Below the pieces are notes generated by a model. It had not been told where the DNA came from. It searched no databases and saw only the letters and a program-made list of their open reading frames with translations. A program made the position numbers and the translations under genes. Source: Verrucomicrobiota bacterium (lineage in GTDB: Bacteria > Verrucomicrobiota > Verrucomicrobiia > Limisphaerales > UBA11320). From it: a DNA stretch of 64,000 nt. The DNA is taken from NCBI GenBank assembly GCA_016199985.1, contig JACQFQ010000006.1, positions 124,001-188,000 of the forward strand. Direction: 5' to 3'. Numbering within the stretch: the first letter of the stretch is position 1; every line of letters begins with the position of its first letter. Positions 49,392 to 64,000 of the stretch are shown piece by piece.

Positions 49392-49628
49392 ATGACCATT
49401 TCCAAAGACATCCTTTCCAAAATCGACATCGACGATTTGCTCGAACAGCGCAAACAGGTGGCTATCATCTGGTGCGTAGAAGACGTGCAGGAGATGCGCC
49501 CCGACCTCAGCGAAGACCAGGCGTTCGAAGTCCTTCTCGAATGCAAGCGCGCTCACGACGGTGAAATCGGCTTTACTTGGACGCTCATTCAGGAGATAGC
49601 GAGTGATATGTTTCCTCGCAGCCGATAG
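49392..49628 (+). CDS. Small conserved acidic plasmid-type protein
   Basis: The 78-residue protein (MTISKDILSKIDIDDLLEQR, CVEDVQEMRPDLSEDQAFEV, LLECKRAHDGEIGFTW) resembles a family of ~75-residue proteins found with the preceding two in alphaproteobacterial plasmids and islands. A GGAGA lies before the ATG, chosen over an upstream in-frame start for this reason. Function unknown. Confidence 0.7.
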   Translation: MTISKDILSKIDIDDLLEQRKQVAIIWCVEDVQEMRPDLSEDQAFEVLLECKRAHDGEIGFTWTLIQEIASDMFPRSR

Positions 49629-49782
49629 GAGCAGACCGCAGACGCCCACGGCCACAATCTGGCCGTGGGTGCAATTCCAGCGTTCCGTGCGACCGCTTCG
49701 CGGAGAGCGCGTTGACTCACTGCACAACAGGGTAAAAACCGTTGCTTCCAACGTGGGCAAACCGGTAGCGTCTCCTCTGAAG

Positions 49783-50340
49783 ATGGATCAGCTCATTAAG
49801 CTCGTCCGCACGTATCGGTTGTCGGACGGTCTGGCCGAACGGCTGCAATTGGCCAACGAGATTTTCAGGCTCATCGAACCGAGGCTGCGCCTATTTGTAT
49901 TCGGCGCACTTGCGCGTCCCGCCGCAGAGGATGTGCACCAGGAAGCCCTGAAAGGCGTGGCCGCCGGACTGGCCGGCTTCGCCGGCAGCACTCCCGGCGA
50001 GTTCTGGGGATGGTGCTACCGCATCGCACGCAACAAGGTGAGCGACCACCTCCGCAAGCAAGCCGCGGAGCGCGCACAACTCATGCCCCCAGAGGAACTC
50101 ATGCGTCTGGTCGAAGTCTCAGGCCGTGATACCGCTCTCTCCTCGGCCGACCGGCTCGACCTGGAATACGCTCTCAAGCTCCTCGCTGAAGCCAAGCCCG
50201 AGTGCCGGGACTACCTGTGGAAGCACTATATCCTTGGGCTCGATTACCGCGAGATTGCCGAGGAACAGAGCCTCACCTACGACAACGTGCGGATGAGAAT
50301 CGGACGCTGCCTGGATGAGGCACAATCGCTCATTTCGTAA
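49783..50340 (+). CDS. ECF-like sigma factor of the island
   Basis: A 185-residue protein starting at MDQLIKLVRTYRLSDGLAER; the open frame extends upstream to 49603 but lacks conservation there. It shows sigma region 2 (ARPAAEDVHQEALKGVAAGL, GEFWGWCYRIARNKVSDHLR) and region 4 (ECRDYLWKHYILGLDYREIA, SLTYDNVRMRIGRCLDEAQS). The next gene follows after 13 bases. It differs clearly from the sigma factor at 37921, so it is not part of the kinase pathway, and it may drive transcription of the island or of the ATPase gene downstream. Confidence 0.78.
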   Translation: MDQLIKLVRTYRLSDGLAERLQLANEIFRLIEPRLRLFVFGALARPAAEDVHQEALKGVAAGLAGFAGSTPGEFWGWCYRIARNKVSDHLRKQAAERAQLMPPEELMRLVEVSGRDTALSSADRLDLEYALKLLAEAKPECRDYLWKHYILGLDYREIAEEQSLTYDNVRMRIGRCLDEAQSLIS

Positions 50341-53882: not shown

Positions 53883-55058
53883 TTACTGCGTCACGCTATC
53901 GAGATAATCCGCCCACCACTGCATCATCTTCCGGCGTTCGGGCAGATATTGCGCGTGGTTGTAGGCCGCTCTCACTTGGTTGCGCTCACAGTGGGCAAGC
54001 TGACGCTCGATGACGTCAGGCATGAAGCCATGCTCATTCAGTATGGTACTGGCGGTACTTCGGAATCCATGCCCGGTCGTGCGTGAATGATAGCCCATGC
54101 GGTACAGCGCATAAAGCATGGTGTTCTCGCTCATGAAGGATTTAGGGCTGTGCTGATTGGGAAACAGATGCTGCCGGTTCCCGGTGAGCTTTTTCAATTG
54201 CCGCAACACTTCAACGGCCTGACGTGACAGCGGCACCATGTGCTCCTCTTTCATTTTCATTCGGCTCGCGGGGATCCGCCACTCGGCTTTGTCGAAATCC
54301 AACTCCATCCATCCGGCCGCGCGCAATTCGGTGGTGCGAACGAAGGTGAGCAAAAGGAGGCGAAGCGCCAGCTTGGTTTGCAATGCCCCATCGTAGGTTT
54401 CCAGTTTTTGCAGGAATTCCGGCAGATCGACAGCCTTCAAGTACGAATGGTGCTTGCTGACTGGTGTTTTGAGCGCTCCCCGAAGGTCAGGCACGGGGTT
54501 TCTCTCGGCGCGCCCCGTGGCGATGGCATACATGAAAACTTGCCCGCACGACTGCATGACGCGCCGGGCTGTGTGCAGGGTTCCTCTGCTTTCAACGACG
54601 CGCAGTACTGAGAGAATCTCGGCGGCCGTAATCTCAGCGACTGGTCTTTTGCCAAGCTTTGGGAATAAATGCCTTTCCAGACGATCTTTTGTCAGCTTGG
54701 CAGTATTCGCCGCCCAGGCGTGTTTGCGCTGCTCAAACCACTCGCGGGCTACCGGCTCAAATGCGTTCTCAGCTTTGAGCACCACAAGGCGCTTTGCCGT
54801 TTTCTTCACCTCTCCGGGGTCGCTCCCGGCTGCCAGCGCCTTTCGCGCATGTGCCCGCCGCTCCCTGGCGTCACTCAGAGTGACTTCAGGATAGACCCCC
54901 AGTGCCAACAGCTTTTCCTTGCCGGCATAGTGGTATTTAAGCCGCCAGTATTTGCTGCCGGCTGGGTTAACCAGCAGAAACATTCCTTCGCCATCGGTTA
55001 TTTTGTAAGGCTTGGCTCTCGGCTTGGCGTTGCGAACCTTCGCATCTGAAAGAGACAT
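53883..55058 (-). CDS. P4-type tyrosine integrase
   Basis: The 391-residue protein has the DUF4102 N-terminal arm-binding domain (ITDGEGMFLLVNPAGSKYWR, YPEVTLSDARERR), a SAM-like core-binding domain (~95-195) and a full catalytic set: R241 (LTFVRTTELR), K in MKMKEEH, H330 and R333 (TGHGFRSTAS), H356 (QLAHCERN), Y366 (RAAYNHAQYL). It integrates genomic islands, usually at a tRNA or tmRNA gene, yet no tRNA is visible on either side. Upstream lie six ATACCCC-like sites. It probably belongs to the island that runs right from here (AlpA, relaxase, coupling protein). Confidence 0.92.
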   Translation of the reverse strand: MSLSDAKVRNAKPRAKPYKITDGEGMFLLVNPAGSKYWRLKYHYAGKEKLLALGVYPEVTLSDARERRAHARKALAAGSDPGEVKKTAKRLVVLKAENAFEPVAREWFEQRKHAWAANTAKLTKDRLERHLFPKLGKRPVAEITAAEILSVLRVVESRGTLHTARRVMQSCGQVFMYAIATGRAERNPVPDLRGALKTPVSKHHSYLKAVDLPEFLQKLETYDGALQTKLALRLLLLTFVRTTELRAAGWMELDFDKAEWRIPASRMKMKEEHMVPLSRQAVEVLRQLKKLTGNRQHLFPNQHSPKSFMSENTMLYALYRMGYHSRTTGHGFRSTASTILNEHGFMPDVIERQLAHCERNQVRAAYNHAQYLPERRKMMQWWADYLDSVTQ

Positions 55059-57695: not shown

Positions 57696-58145
57696 CTAAT
57701 GCGGTTTGCGCGTCATGCTGACCTTCTCTGCTTCTTCCACGCCGTCACCGCTTTCCTTTACGACCACTTCGATGCTTTCGATAAACGCTGCGGTCGCATC
57801 GCTGGGCTTTGCCCAGCGGTCGGGGTCGTATTCCTGGATAAAATCGCAGGTGCCGAGCTCAAGCGCCGTCACCACCTGTTGCAGATTCTTGCCCCTCACC
57901 AGCACCATGAGGAACGTGTAGGCGAGAACAAAGTTGGTGCCGAACGGCCCGTCATAGGAGATGTCGAGAAGGTAGGCATAGCCGGGCGAGCGCGTCGGTG
58001 CAGCCGCTCGCCGCACTCTCAATCGCTCGACCCTGTCTTTCGTGCCGAAGGCGAGATAGTCCTCCGGCCCCTGATCGGTCGGAGGCGATTGCTCGCGTGT
58101 GGGTTGCTTCTTGCGAAACTGTGCTAAGGGGTCATTCATAATCAT
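57696..58145 (-). CDS. Uncharacterised mobilisation-locus protein
   Basis: The 149-residue product has a charged N-terminus (~1-50), a central beta-rich region (GYAYLLDISYDGPFGTNFVL, AYTFLMVLVRGKNLQQVVTA, LELGTCDFIQEYDPDRW) and an acidic end. It overlaps the stop of the upstream gene by four bases, so it is translated with the mobilisation genes. I do not recognise its family. A role as relaxase accessory is only contextual. Confidence 0.6.
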   Translation of the reverse strand: MIMNDPLAQFRKKQPTREQSPPTDQGPEDYLAFGTKDRVERLRVRRAAAPTRSPGYAYLLDISYDGPFGTNFVLAYTFLMVLVRGKNLQQVVTALELGTCDFIQEYDPDRWAKPSDATAAFIESIEVVVKESGDGVEEAEKVSMTRKPH

Positions 58146-58504
58146 TCCCTCCCGAGGCGCTCAACATGCGCCTGCTGTTTTTGCACGATGCCCCGCGTTC
58201 GTACCTTACGGCGCATGGCGTCGCGGTCCATTTCACGGATACGCGCCGCATATAAAGCGATGCCGCCGGTCATTTTAATCACTCCGATCTGCGCCACCGT
58301 TTCGACATTGGTAATCGCGTTCATCATCTGACGTTTCACCTCTCCTGTGAGAGAATGGCCAGGAGCCTGAGTACGTGGCACAGCGCCCGGACTGCCCACG
58401 GTGGGAATTCTTGCCCCTCGCTGGAATGTTCGTCTATGGGCGGCAGTTTCGGAGTGCGACACCGCATCCATCGCCCGGCGTTTCGATTCGTTGGGTGTTT
58501 CCAT
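58142..58504 (-). CDS. Uncharacterised mobilisation-locus protein
   Basis: A 120-residue basic protein (RRTFQRGARIPTVGSPGAVP, VKRQMMNAITNVETVAQIGV, GIALYAARIREMDRDAMRRK). No domain is recognised. It starts seven bases after the relaxase stop and overlaps the following gene, so relaxase, this gene and the next form one operon; a DNA-binding accessory role would fit its positive charge. Confidence 0.55.
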   Translation of the reverse strand: METPNESKRRAMDAVSHSETAAHRRTFQRGARIPTVGSPGAVPRTQAPGHSLTGEVKRQMMNAITNVETVAQIGVIKMTGGIALYAARIREMDRDAMRRKVRTRGIVQKQQAHVERLGRE

Positions 58505-58510
58505 AAATCG

Positions 58511-59422
58511 TCATCGTGAAAGTTCTGGCTCATGGCCTTCCCCTTTCGACCGGCTCGGCTGGATCATCTTTCGCCAGGACTTCTTCATCCAAGCGGTGGC
58601 CTGATCGCGTACCCTCGCGGCGAAGATGATGGATTTTTCCCACCACATCGCCCCGACGCCGCGCTCGCTTACCGCGCCGTCCCTTTGAATGGCCTTGGCC
58701 AGCGGGCGCATTTCATTAAGCGCCCTCACCCAGCGGACGAGCTTAAACCGCTCGGGGTCGGCCTCGACGCCCCGGCGCTTCATGGCGGTGGCCGCCACCC
58801 CGATTTTCGGCTCGGGCTGGCGGTCGATGCCCCGGTCTTTAAGCGACCGGTGATCGACCCTCTCTGGCCTTCCGGCTTTCTCTAGGGCTGTATTCACCGC
58901 CTCAGCCCAGGACTCGCGCTGCTCGACGAGCAGTCCGACGTCGTTCCACTCCCTGGGCTTCTTCGTACTGAACTTATCCCCCTCCAGTTTCCGCATCGTG
59001 GTGAGGATATGGACGTGGGGGTTTTTCCCGGTCTTCGTATGGTGCAAAGACAGCTCGGCGACCATGCCCTTTGAGACCAACTCTTGCCTTGCCCAAGCCA
59101 GCGCCGTGGCGAATTGGGCTTCGGTGGAAAGCTCCGGGGGAACGGCCAGGATGAACTCTCGGGCAAGCTGTGCGTCCACGCGCTTTTCCCCGGCTTCGAC
59201 CGCGTTCCAAAAACGCCCGGAATCAAGCGCCCACTCGGGCGCTCCCTCCGGCGTCAGTATCGTTGTGTTTACGACCCCTTTCATTCGGCGCGCGTAGTCA
59301 TAGATTTTGCCGTCGCGCTCATCTCGAAGCTTGCTTCCCGCCCGGTAGGCGGCTGCCGCGATGACGGATCTGCCACGCTTTTCGCGGCTGAAGATCTTCG
59401 CTTCGAGTCGGTAGATCGCCAT
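58511..59422 (-). CDS. MobA/MobL-family relaxase (MOB-Q type)
   Basis: The 303-residue protein starts MAIYRLEAKIFSREKRGRSV; Tyr26 in AAAAYRAGS is the probable nicking residue, and the histidine set is HH (~127-128) and NPHVHIL (H136, H138). The domain usually continues into a primase or other region; here only the relaxase and a short C-terminus are present. It would nick at an oriT and lead the strand through a transfer channel. The coupling protein gene lies upstream on the same strand, after 513 bases of structured DNA that may contain the oriT. A GAGAGGTGG site precedes the start. Confidence 0.9.
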   Translation of the reverse strand: MAIYRLEAKIFSREKRGRSVIAAAAYRAGSKLRDERDGKIYDYARRMKGVVNTTILTPEGAPEWALDSGRFWNAVEAGEKRVDAQLAREFILAVPPELSTEAQFATALAWARQELVSKGMVAELSLHHTKTGKNPHVHILTTMRKLEGDKFSTKKPREWNDVGLLVEQRESWAEAVNTALEKAGRPERVDHRSLKDRGIDRQPEPKIGVAATAMKRRGVEADPERFKLVRWVRALNEMRPLAKAIQRDGAVSERGVGAMWWEKSIIFAARVRDQATAWMKKSWRKMIQPSRSKGEGHEPELSR

Positions 59423-59650
59423 AGGCGTTTACCCACCTCTCTTAGTTTGTATTGTACCATACTTGCATTGCGTTTGTCCCATGACATCGAGGCTAAGAGC
59501 GGCTTTGCGCCTGTTTCGCCTCACATAAAAGACAGTCGTCCGCAGACGTCCGCAGCGAACAAAAAATGTGGAATGGCGAGGTTATACATTGCTTCGCAAC
59601 GTCACCTCGCAGGGTCGCTCCAAAGCCGCGCCCTTGACCCTGGCTTGTCC

Positions 59651-59935: not shown

Positions 59936-61408
59936 CTACCGCTGCCTAAAGGTCAAAAGCTTGTGGGGCAGTATCTCGCCGTGGCCGCCCGCGGGGTCGA
60001 GGAATTGGTTACCGCCATTGTAGACAATGGCCTCGACCAGGTAGTCGTTTTGCTGGCCGCCGCGCTTCAGAGTGGTGAAGCGCGAGGGCTCTATAAAGCG
60101 TCGCCGCTCCTCTTTGCGAGAGACCGCCGCGCTCCGGCTTTCCTGCCCGGCGGCTTGCTGCGTACCATCGTTGCTCCCCCGCGCGACATTGGTGCTGGTA
60201 ACGTGCAACCAGTGTTCCCCGAGAAGCTTCGCCGCCCAGTCGTTGGTTCCCCCGCTGTTTTGACAGAAAAACTTGGCTTGCAGGTTGCCGAGCAGCGAGT
60301 CCACGGCGTCATCGTTTCCGAGCACTCTTCTTAAGCTCTCGCGGCTTTGCGTGATGTAAACCGTGCACCCACCGGCCGACCTGGCTACCGCCTGATACTC
60401 GGCGTCGAAATCGGTGACGAAGTTCTGTGCTTCATCCGCCCACAGGAAGACCGGTCGCATGAAGCCGCCCTCCGGCGGCATCCGGCGGAGCACGGCAAGC
60501 TGGAAACAGAACTTCCAGGCTAGATTGGCGATTTTGCCGACCAGGCGGTATTCCTGGATGGGCAGGTCGACGATAATGATTTTACCGGCAAAGGCGTCCT
60601 CCGGCTTGATATTGGTATCCGTGCAAAAGAGCTTCCTCAGCGGGCGGGTGACGAAGGGGCGCAGCAACATCGAAAACGTCAGGTCGACGATTGAGCGCGT
60701 CTTCTCGGAGAGAGCAGGATATTCCCGCAGCCAGTAGGTCTGGCACTCCTCGAAATCGGCGCGGATGTCGGCATCGCCTTTGACGGTCGCTTCGTCGCCT
60801 TCGTGCAAGGTGATGGCGCAAACGCTCTTCTCATGCCAGTCCTCATCCTCAGTCTGGAGCGCGGTGAGTGGAGCCGAGTTCATGATCGAGCGCAAAAGCG
60901 GTAGTGAGATTCGAAGCCCGGCGAAGAGAGGGAGGTCGACCAGGTTGGTCAGCATGTGGGCAAGCGCGTCGTCCCAGAACCGGTCGCCTCCCGCGCTGAC
61001 CTTCGCAGTTCGTCCTGAAACGGCGGTGGCGATTTGCGAGAGAATGGCGACGATGTTAATCGTCAGCCCGCCGCCCTCTCCAGGCCGCGCTGCCTCCCAG
61101 TCCATGAAGTTGTATCGCCACTGGCCTTGCCCATCGACGATGACCAGATCATCCGTTCGCCCGGTCTCCGCCGCCCATTGCTCCCATTGGAACCGTTCTT
61201 CCTGTTTGGCGCAGAGAACGAGGCCGCCGAAGTCGGCGGCAAGGTAGCTGTAAGCAAGATGCTTGGCCGGACCGGAGGTCTTGCCCGAGCCGGTTGCGCC
61301 GAAGATACAGACGCCGGTGCCGGCATCGGCGAGCCGAAATGCGTCGCCGTCGCCCCAATCCTGAAGGATGGTCTGCGGATGGAAGTCCGCCAGATTGTCG
61401 TGGTGCAT
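59936..61408 (-). CDS. VirD4/TraD-type coupling ATPase
   Basis: The ATG at 61408 (MHHDNLADFHPQTILQDWGD) gives 490 residues. Walker A is FGATGSGKTSG (~38-46) and Walker B VFLWADEAQNF (~320-330); YITQSRESLRRVLGN near the C-terminal third resembles the motif 3 region of the coupling proteins. There is no N-terminal membrane segment, so it is the soluble type seen in some TraD/TraG relatives. It would bring the relaxase-DNA complex to a secretion channel, but no other type IV secretion genes are visible in the window, so the element is mobilisable or its channel genes lie to the right. Confidence 0.87.
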   Translation of the reverse strand: MHHDNLADFHPQTILQDWGDGDAFRLADAGTGVCIFGATGSGKTSGPAKHLAYSYLAADFGGLVLCAKQEERFQWEQWAAETGRTDDLVIVDGQGQWRYNFMDWEAARPGEGGGLTINIVAILSQIATAVSGRTAKVSAGGDRFWDDALAHMLTNLVDLPLFAGLRISLPLLRSIMNSAPLTALQTEDEDWHEKSVCAITLHEGDEATVKGDADIRADFEECQTYWLREYPALSEKTRSIVDLTFSMLLRPFVTRPLRKLFCTDTNIKPEDAFAGKIIIVDLPIQEYRLVGKIANLAWKFCFQLAVLRRMPPEGGFMRPVFLWADEAQNFVTDFDAEYQAVARSAGGCTVYITQSRESLRRVLGNDDAVDSLLGNLQAKFFCQNSGGTNDWAAKLLGEHWLHVTSTNVARGSNDGTQQAAGQESRSAAVSRKEERRRFIEPSRFTTLKRGGQQNDYLVEAIVYNGGNQFLDPAGGHGEILPHKLLTFRQR

Positions 61409-61447
61409 ACGCAAGTCGGCTGGTAACCGGAGTACGTTTCTGGTTTG

Positions 61448-61858
61448 TCAGTTCCAAATGAGAATCCATTTTGGTTCTAAGCCTCGCCAGGCACAGGCTC
61501 CGGCGATGAATTCCCCGTGCTCGGCCAGGTGGCGCTGGATGTTCTCCGGGGCAACGGTGCGGTAGTGTGGAACCAGACGCACGCCGGGGGCGTGCTGGCC
61601 AAAATGTTGACCGAGAAGGCGCGAGTGGATACCGGCCACGTCGATGTCGTAACGGGCAAGAGGCGAAAGAATAATCAGAATGGCAAAGCCGATATGCAGG
61701 CGGCGTCTATACTGTGGCAGCGCAAGGTAGATGGCTGTGACTGGAAGCCACAACGCCAGGGACACCACGCGGAAGCAAATCGCTAGTGGAATGAGAGTGC
61801 CAACGAAATAGGACAGCGTGGAACGGAACGTCTCGCAGCGGGCGGGGCTTGGGTTCAT
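61448..61858 (-). CDS. Small membrane protein of the transfer region
   Basis: The 136-residue product has two or three hydrophobic helices in its first 75 residues (FVGTLIPLAICFRVVSLALW, VTAIYLALP, HIGFAILIILSPLA) and a soluble C-terminus with several histidines (IDVAGIHSRLLGQHFGQHAP). It lies between the GTPase and the coupling protein genes on the same strand, with gaps of 8 and 39 bases. It may supply the membrane anchor that the coupling protein lacks. No family is recognised. Confidence 0.6.
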   Translation of the reverse strand: MNPSPARCETFRSTLSYFVGTLIPLAICFRVVSLALWLPVTAIYLALPQYRRRLHIGFAILIILSPLARYDIDVAGIHSRLLGQHFGQHAPGVRLVPHYRTVAPENIQRHLAEHGEFIAGACAWRGLEPKWILIWN

Positions 61859-61866
61859 GAATGGAT

Positions 61867-63051
61867 TCAGTTGAGCTTGGACGAAGGGTAGGCCATCGCG
61901 AAGGCGCTCTCGGTGGTGGCCATGCTTTGCATGACGAATTGGGCGGCGGTCTCCTGGTCGCTCACCAGCGTTTTTAGCCGCTGCGCCTCCGCCTGATTCT
62001 GCTCCTGCAATTGCTCGGCGTTGAGGAGTTTCAGTTGTGCCGAGCGGCTGGAGAACTTTGCAAACCAGGCAAAAATGCCGCCGTCGATGTTACGTTCCTC
62101 TAAAAAGCGATGGATGAATCTCCCAGCCCAGTTTCCAAAAATTTCCCACGGCTCAAGTTTCGCAAGAACGGGTCTGTTAAGCTCTCTGGCGCGTTGTTCA
62201 AGCGCCGCCTGCGCTGCTTTCATCTCCCGGTGAATCATGTCCGGCAGCACGCAGGCAAAAGGCACTTCTACGTGCAACGGTGTCGGCAGGGTGCCGTTGC
62301 TTCGGGCGGCAGTGCCGTTGAGAATGGCGGCGTATTCACGCCCGACCGAGCTTACCGGAATGAGACGCACGGTTCCGGTGCAGTTGGCAACGACGTTGTG
62401 AAACGCCGGAAACGCGAGCAGGGCGTCGCGCACTTTTCTTAAGGAATCGTCGCAAGCTTCAAAACAGTCCCATTTGGTGACGACGAAGTGAATGGATTTG
62501 TCCTTGCCGTCATACTTGGTCATCTGCTCGCACAGCGCTTGCATCTCGTGCATCCAGAACATTTCGTCCGCTGCGCCGCCGCTGAGTTGCTTGCATAGTT
62601 TTTCGCCGTCGATGAAGCCGAGCAGGATGTCGGCAATCTCGAAAATGCCGGCGGTCGCTTCTTCAATCTCTGGGTCGCCGGTGTCCTCGGTAAGCCGCTC
62701 TCCCGACATGTCGCAGTAGCAAAGAGTAACCGCGTGTTGATTGCCTGATGGCGATTTGACCGTGATGTCAAACTCGAACACATCCGTGTCAGCCAGCGCG
62801 GTAGGAGGTGGCCAAGCAGCGGTGAGCGAGTTGTAGGCGAAGCGCAGGCGCTTTTGCTGCGGCAACGGCGCGTCGAGGAAATACCCGACTTCGCTGGGGG
62901 TAGAAAGTTTGCGGTAGAGGGCGCTTAAATAGACGGTTTTTCCAGAGCCCGCCGCCCCAAGGATGACGGTATTGTATTTTCGCATAGGTTTGTGTTTGTA
63001 GTAGAAATGCACACCATCACTCGAACTTGCCGTTTGCGTGATGGCGTTCAT
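61867..63051 (-). CDS. TRAFAC/double-GTPase-like P-loop protein
   Basis: The 394-residue protein contains a Ras-like G domain: G1 ILGAAGSGKTVYL (~29-41), G3-like CYCDMSGERL, and G4 HFVVTKWDCF (TKxD). Arg-free switch regions and a long insertion between G1 and G3 resemble the double-GTPase (DO-GTPase) families described in bacterial conflict systems. The last ~60 residues form a coiled coil (LKLLNAEQLQEQNQAEAQRL). The start could be the ATG at 62985 instead of 63051. It is the middle gene between the tail-anchored protein upstream and the small membrane protein downstream. A role in defence or in controlling transfer is inferred. Confidence 0.72.
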   Translation of the reverse strand: MNAITQTASSSDGVHFYYKHKPMRKYNTVILGAAGSGKTVYLSALYRKLSTPSEVGYFLDAPLPQQKRLRFAYNSLTAAWPPPTALADTDVFEFDITVKSPSGNQHAVTLCYCDMSGERLTEDTGDPEIEEATAGIFEIADILLGFIDGEKLCKQLSGGAADEMFWMHEMQALCEQMTKYDGKDKSIHFVVTKWDCFEACDDSLRKVRDALLAFPAFHNVVANCTGTVRLIPVSSVGREYAAILNGTAARSNGTLPTPLHVEVPFACVLPDMIHREMKAAQAALEQRARELNRPVLAKLEPWEIFGNWAGRFIHRFLEERNIDGGIFAWFAKFSSRSAQLKLLNAEQLQEQNQAEAQRLKTLVSDQETAAQFVMQSMATTESAFAMAYPSSKLN

Positions 63052-63082
63052 GCCTGGTTAGTTTGGTGGAAATGTGGCGGGC

Positions 63083-63886
63083 TTAGAGGTTGCGGTGGAT
63101 GTCCGCCGTTTGGCGCTCTTGCCCGACGCGCTGAACGAAGCCGTGCTGCTTCGTTTTGGGTTTGGAAGAATGCCGATAGGCCAGATAGGCCGCGCCGATG
63201 GCAACCGCGGCGACCACGCCAAAGACGACTGTCTTGTTCATCCCGGATTTCGGCAGGTCTTTTTCCAATGCCGGCAGGGGTGATTCGGGCGGCGCGAATT
63301 TCGGAAGCGCTTGGGCGGCAGGCGGCACTTCGCGCAAGGGCGGCGGGCTGGGCGGAGCCGGTGGGTGCAGATTGGGCGACTCCTTAATGTGCAGACGCAG
63401 CTTGTCGCCCGTCGCCGCGGCGACGGGAAGCTCGATGGCATCGGAGGTAATGTGTTTCCAATCACGCGATACCTTCCAATCGCTCCCGGCCTCCCAGAAT
63501 GTTCTAAAATCCCCTTCAACGGCTTTGTGGGCGGCATCGAGTTGGACTTGCGTAAAGTGCAACTGTTCATCGGGCAACCGCTCGGTCAGGACAAGCCCCT
63601 CGTAGAGGGGAATCGGACGGCGCACATCGTCGCGCAAGATGGCGTCACTGTCCTTGCCGAGCATTCGCTCGGTGCCCTGCACCACTCGAAACACCATGTC
63701 CACCACGCCCACGGATTCATGATAGCCTTTGAGGTAAATCGCTTCCCCCGCGCCGGACTGGAATTCATTAGAACAGGCGCGGACGACCTCGTGAGCCGCG
63801 CCGGCCTTCTGGAGGAACTCGGGAATGGTCACCATCGAAAAACCGCGGATGTGGTTCTTGGTAATCAAAAATGGCCAGGCTTTCAT
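63083..63886 (-). CDS. Tail-anchored partner protein of the GTPase
   Basis: From the ATG at 63886 (MKAWPFLITKNHIRGFSMVT) the product has 267 residues: a soluble alpha/beta domain (~1-150), a Pro-rich linker (~160-200: HPPAPPSPPPLREVPP), and one C-terminal transmembrane helix (~212-232, VVFGVVAAVAIGAAYLAY) followed by a basic tail. It is encoded 32 bases upstream of the GTPase gene. The architecture of a cytosolic domain on a C-terminal anchor suits a membrane sensor or docking platform for the GTPase. I do not recognise the soluble domain; a GTPase-associated protein is a guess from context. Confidence 0.65.
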   Translation of the reverse strand: MKAWPFLITKNHIRGFSMVTIPEFLQKAGAAHEVVRACSNEFQSGAGEAIYLKGYHESVGVVDMVFRVVQGTERMLGKDSDAILRDDVRRPIPLYEGLVLTERLPDEQLHFTQVQLDAAHKAVEGDFRTFWEAGSDWKVSRDWKHITSDAIELPVAAATGDKLRLHIKESPNLHPPAPPSPPPLREVPPAAQALPKFAPPESPLPALEKDLPKSGMNKTVVFGVVAAVAIGAAYLAYRHSSKPKTKQHGFVQRVGQERQTADIHRNL

Positions 63887-63921
63887 AGTGTGTAAGTGTA
63901 TCACGCTGTAGCGAAACAGTT

Positions 63922-63954: not shown

Positions 63955-64000
63955 TTTATGCCGTGGCTTCCGTAGCTTGAGTGCTGCCTTCATTGTCCTT

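Follow-up and report, generated by a model that had tools for sequence, protein, structure and literature searches.

We asked why a gene for a GTPase of a superfamily placed in bacterial conflict systems should lie between two genes of DNA transfer in a member of the Verrucomicrobiota, and whether the GTPase and its immediate neighbours are passengers or parts of the transfer machinery. The window (the whole stretch of 64,000 nt analysed here) comes from a draft genome of 6.8 Mb that is 95% complete, and the genes in question stand at its right-hand end (L numbers denote loci, here and below):

63990..64000 (-), 3' end of up289, a gene for a 289-aa membrane protein that runs past the window to about 64859 (L002:11990-12859)
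63083..63886 (-), tail-anchored protein, 267 aa; ATG at 63886, alternative GTG at 63904
61867..63051 (-), GTPase of TRAFAC type, DO-GTPase superfamily, 394 aa; Pfam PF19975 and PF19993, G motifs
61448..61858 (-), small membrane protein, 136 aa, recognised by hydropathy; no family match (Pfam, NCBIfam, PHROGs)
59936..61414 (-), type IV coupling protein (T4CP); TTG start, probable ATG at 61408; Pfam TraG-D_C and TrwB_AAD_bind

On the minus strand the order is thus up289, tail-anchored protein, GTPase, small membrane protein and T4CP, with intergenic gaps of 103, 31, 8 and 33 nt. The last three gaps give the four genes from tail-anchored protein to T4CP an operon-like spacing, and the tail-anchored protein, GTPase and small membrane protein genes (hereafter the trio) are presumably co-transcribed with that of the T4CP. 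A first-pass annotation had described a one-strand gene set with short gaps directly upstream of a coupling protein, and this description holds, as the open reading frames are real and the spacing is as given. Codon-position GC differs little between the trio and the transfer genes (GC3 of 66-72% versus 72-76%). Judged from gene order, a three-gene module is inserted between T4CP and up289.

The GTPase has complete G1, G3, G4 and G5 motifs (GAAGSGKT at 32, DMSGE at 114, TKWD at 192 and SSVG at 234) and scores above the Pfam cut-off of 27 for both DO-GTPase1 (PF19975, 34.2 bits) and DO-GTPase2 (PF19993, 31.4 bits). The two matches bear out its initial identification as a TRAFAC/double-GTPase-like protein, and the intact G motifs give no sign of the loss of GTP binding that had been named as evidence against the first-pass proposal. 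The hallmark of DO-GTPases is a conserved glutamate after the DxxG of Walker B (PMC7159879), which is present here in the DxxGE form (DMSGE). DO-GTPases have been assigned to conflict systems, and membrane components are found in 67% of these (eLife 2020, PMC7159879); the hydrophobic segments of the tail-anchored and small proteins provide such components in the trio. In the described systems a GAP1 protein is adjacent or fused to the GTPase, and 38% have two paralogous GTPases (PMC7159879). Scanning the trio, T4CP, up289 and the next genes with Pfam revealed no GAP1 domain, and no second GTPase of DO-GTPase type was found at the locus or elsewhere in the genome; nor was an effector domain recognised in the trio proteins. 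While the TRAFAC GTPase, its two Pfam matches, the DxxGE motif and partners with membrane segments are therefore shared with DO-GTPase conflict systems (PMC7159879), the window differs from them in its single GTPase, in having neither GAP1 nor a recognised effector, and in its position inside a mobilization locus. Since both GAP1 and a GTPase pair are lacking, the GTPase set falls outside the described systems, and on sequence grounds we class the GTPase as a DO-GTPase-superfamily member outside them. Classical DO-GTPase systems do occur in the same order, as indicated by a classical GTPase pair with a protein resembling GAP1 in G452 (L062).

The tail-anchored protein consists of a soluble N-terminal part, a Pro-rich linker (about 170-207), a hydrophobic segment from 219 and a basic tail, and the small membrane protein has two hydrophobic segments, one clear (18-45) and one weaker (about 55-75), all such segments being called by a Kyte-Doolittle scan and not by a trained predictor. 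These segments agree with the original description of the GTPase as flanked by a tail-anchored protein with a Pro-rich linker and by a small membrane protein. Cell-wall sorting of the tail-anchored protein was considered because its LPKSG, which precedes the hydrophobic segment, resembles LPxTG, and was rejected: the Pfam match is below cut-off (E 0.14) and there is no evident signal peptide.

The tail-anchored protein has no match in Pfam, PADLOC, NCBIfam, PHROGs or plasmids, the small membrane protein none in plasmids, and no PADLOC defence model fits any protein of the trio. Orthologues of the GTPase were absent from genome contigs (pattern search), IMG/VR, plasmids, phages and 58 relatives, as well as from the genomes of the phylum (388, with one weak match) and of the order (210), and a PDB sequence search gave no match; most of the 35 genomes with matches had short P-loop matches, which were excluded from relatives. 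Single-sequence structure predictions had mean pLDDT values of 41.8 and 36.0, so that the models were unusable. Across all collections searched the trio was seen once only, and no homologous gene sets confined to places outside mobile elements, a distribution that had been said to speak against the proposal, were found. Its single occurrence, and the lack of a family assignment for two of its genes, would suit a chance insertion unlinked to defence or transfer, for example of a host-derived membrane-stress GTPase gene set, and an association of a DO-GTPase with phage-shock-protein operons has been described (PMC11237479). We consider such an origin improbable, however: the compact same-strand spacing and a codon-position GC near that of the transfer genes suggest an established operon.

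The surroundings of the trio are those of a mobile element:

59558..59640 (unstranded), block of conserved non-coding DNA upstream of MobA that contains an imperfect inverted repeat; oriT or promoter candidate
58511..59422 (-), MobA/MobL relaxase; Pfam PF03389, E 1e-64
57696..58504 (-), orf149 and orf120, small genes with homologues beside MobA in L005, L007, L008 and others
53883..55058 (-), tyrosine integrase of the element; 75-80% identical to the integrases of L005, L007 and L008
50692..53445 (+), candidate defence protein, carried as cargo by the window element; PADLOC PDC-S06, E 5e-192

Leftward from the T4CP, the genes are those of MobA, orf120, orf149, AlpA, a toxin-antitoxin-like pair, a Fic protein, the integrase and the PDC-S06 protein. 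MobA is 61-74% identical in L005, L007, L008 and L009, and the non-coding block, shared by five elements with the window's included, has 77-80% DNA identity to L005, L007, L008 and L079. The PDC-S06 gene lies between the integrase and a sigma-factor-like gene (49603-50340), in what is a further position for cargo; the corresponding site of L005 is occupied by a Fic gene. No VirB4 was found in the 95% complete draft (one VirB4 model, strict score cut-off), which makes the element mobilizable at best; an integrase and a relaxase are present and mating-pair genes, by the VirB4 search, are absent. The best explanation is that this end of the window is the transfer module of an integrative mobilizable element, comprising integrase, AlpA, MobA, candidate oriT, T4CP and up289. 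The term 'transfer operon' used in the first-pass annotation is strong for a locus that encodes a MobA relaxase and a T4CP in a genome with no VirB4 match. Integrative and mobilizable elements with defence cargo (PMC11389934) have in common with the window an integrase, a relaxase, their own coupling protein and defence genes, but in the window cargo lies within the gene pair of T4CP and partner. We did not find where the element ends on the right: the contig stops inside or just after a gene for a 1624-aa helicase of SNF2/ResIII type (L003:7821-12695). A 1992-aa protein near the T4CP of Thermogemmatispora (L006) resembles this helicase by eye only.

An element without a VirB4-type system of its own would need a helper, and the trio has two membrane-located products and a position among transfer genes. 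These features could suggest an exclusion or helper-control module that counteracts incoming or helper conjugative elements at the membrane. The trio proteins, however, have no similarity to known exclusion or fertility-inhibition proteins (Pfam, NCBIfam, PHROGs), and we regard this role as very unlikely.

The coupling protein matches TraG-D_C (E 2e-13), has its Walker A motif at 39 and contains no hydrophobic segment in the Kyte-Doolittle scan, in line with the earlier remark that it lacks a membrane helix of its own. Eight relatives at 59-70% identity belong to Verrucomicrobia, a Chloroflexota strain (Thermogemmatispora), a Phycisphaerae bin and a Rubrivivax bin. We read 43 distinct homologous T4CP loci from genomes and plasmids; a membrane protein of the up289 family directly follows the T4CP on the same strand in 22 of these, usually within 5 nt, and in L079 up289 lies 26 nt from the T4CP on the opposite strand. 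No homologous locus has a gene between T4CP and up289, and the window pair alone is split, by the trio. The convergent pair of L079 (L079:7249-9093) is the only other rearranged one and comes nearest to the window in layout, without a GTPase.

For T4CPs without a membrane domain an external anchor has been postulated (PMC7434980). The first-pass annotation had likewise thought of an external anchor. The principle is right, the protein it suggests is not: the conserved neighbour of the T4CP is the up289 family, which, in place of the tail-anchored protein, is the likely membrane anchor. The arrangement resembles that of T4CPs lacking a transmembrane domain, of the type of TraJ of pIP501 (PMC7434980), in which a small membrane protein is likewise encoded alongside a helix-free T4CP; the window differs in that no mating-pair system was found, in its up289-family partner, and in the trio that separates the two genes. 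A helix-free T4CP with an adjacent up289-family gene was seen in a group of loci (L005-L012, L033-L037, L080-L085, L087, L089, L090) from Verrucomicrobia, Chloroflexota, Planctomycetota and Proteobacteria. More distant T4CPs (L038, L039, L042-L048) have C-terminal hydrophobic segments in place of a separate partner gene; a fused up289 was considered for these segments and not adopted, the architecture being suggestive and the profiles unsupportive.

In DNA alignment the window is collinear with L005, L007 and L008 from integrase to MobA, and its T4CP is inverted. The strand of the T4CP relative to MobA is opposite to that in all close relatives: in L005, L007 and L008 the T4CP starts divergently from MobA, and the start of the window T4CP is turned towards the trio. 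Given this inversion, the T4CP would most simply be read from upstream of the trio. The trio was found in none of the 43 homologous T4CP loci, and a profile that includes the window GTPase detected the GTPase in none of them. Immediately beyond the T4CP-up289 pair, related loci encode type I restriction-modification and a ThsB-type (Thoeris-type) TIR protein (L005), a CBASS cyclase with a phospholipase (L008, L012), a type III methyltransferase (L011) and, directly downstream, a SIR2-linked Argonaute (L033:3507-6638), and the start of the L005 type I methyltransferase recurs in a gene of L009, L077 and L032. The cargo of relatives is always outside the pair and never inside it; the trio of the window is inside.

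Alternatively, the trio might regulate transfer, licensing assembly or membrane positioning of the T4CP as a gate set by GTP state. The trio lies between T4CP and membrane partner on the same strand with gaps of 8-33 nt, the inverted T4CP would most simply be transcribed with it, and cargo is never placed there in relatives. The same relatives, however, keep MobA, T4CP and up289 without the trio, and we think transfer control unlikely; the earlier suggestion that the GTPase controls transfer is weakened by its absence from the 43 loci and keeps some force from the inversion and the probable joint transcription. A GTPase switch and tail-anchored partner built into the mobilization operon, with expression and perhaps activity of the T4CP dependent on a conflict-type GTPase module, would couple defence and transfer, which we hold to be a rather improbable arrangement.

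A distant parallel to the trio is a sparse cassette of two genes, which encode a GTPase in the DO-GTPase2 range and an adjacent partner and have no counterpart in Pfam, PADLOC or NCBIfam:

L040:205-2161, GTPase-partner cassette adjoining a tyrosine recombinase
L095:8223-10364, GTPase-partner cassette
L096:7234-9267, GTPase-partner cassette
L094:8010-9499, GTPase-partner cassette on a Curtobacterium plasmid, among TniQ, type ISP restriction enzyme, SAVED and DncV-like genes
L097:5938-7520, GTPase-partner cassette in MT835574.1

The five partners share the motifs FLWxTRG..WGFRFL and RxIPHE. Those of L040, L095 and L096, which belong to the phylum of the window (Verrucomicrobiota), have one C-terminal membrane segment, and those of L094 and L097 have none. 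Like the trio, the cassette sets a DO-GTPase2-range GTPase beside a partner that in three cases has a single C-terminal membrane segment; unlike in the trio, the GTPase comes first, and the N-domain of the partner is not detectably related to that of the window protein. The window GTPase matches the cassette GTPases weakly (21.6 bits, E 0.004 for a million sequences; about 20% identity). Membership of the tail-anchored protein in the partner family of L040 and L095 was rejected: a loose motif alignment looked convincing by eye, but a profile of the five partners did not score it above shuffles. The cassette family is used here as an analogy and not as proof of membership. On the Curtobacterium plasmid the partner gene is missing from the annotation. 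The entry MT835574.1, labelled Bacteriophage sp., has bacterial-looking, actinobacterial-looking metabolic genes around the cassette and is probably a mislabelled bacterial contig.

With confidence about evenly balanced, we favour the explanation that the trio is cargo transcribed together with the T4CP, a conflict or stress module of DO-GTPase-like type that associates with the membrane. The trio is missing at the T4CP genes of relatives, where anti-phage systems stand beside the same genes, which makes cargo likelier than a part of the transfer machine. The DO-GTPase Pfam matches, the DMSGE motif and the record of the superfamily in conflict systems (PMC7159879) count for conflict or stress cargo, and the cargo reading is further favoured by PDC-S06 in the same element, by a distant GTPase family with its own partner, membrane-anchored in three loci of the phylum, and by the soluble-partner member in the Curtobacterium plasmid island. 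Against it count the lack of an effector domain, of GAP1 and of a PADLOC fit, the single occurrence of the trio, the placement of relatives' cargo outside the pair, and a parallel family whose partner has no significant sequence similarity to the tail-anchored protein and whose GTPase is weakly matched. The idea of a defence system travelling within the transfer operon is therefore favoured by the comparison of loci, the neighbouring defence genes and the superfamily, and finds no counterpart among PADLOC models.

Because no orthologue was found, we infer the function of the trio, including its membrane recruitment, trigger, output and defence or stress role. The tail-anchored protein would hold the GTPase at the inner membrane, infection or membrane stress would trigger a change in its nucleotide state, and this change would be passed to the membrane proteins, which may act on the membrane. 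We know of no DO-GTPase system for which a mechanism has been worked out.

The up289 family is the likely membrane partner for a widespread group of helix-free coupling proteins, an assignment that is directly testable. If the trio controls transfer, it would represent a GTPase gate on DNA mobilization. If it is a defence or stress module, it would be a GAP1-free, tail-anchored form of DO-GTPase systems, and a case of cargo that has invaded the gene pair of the coupling protein.
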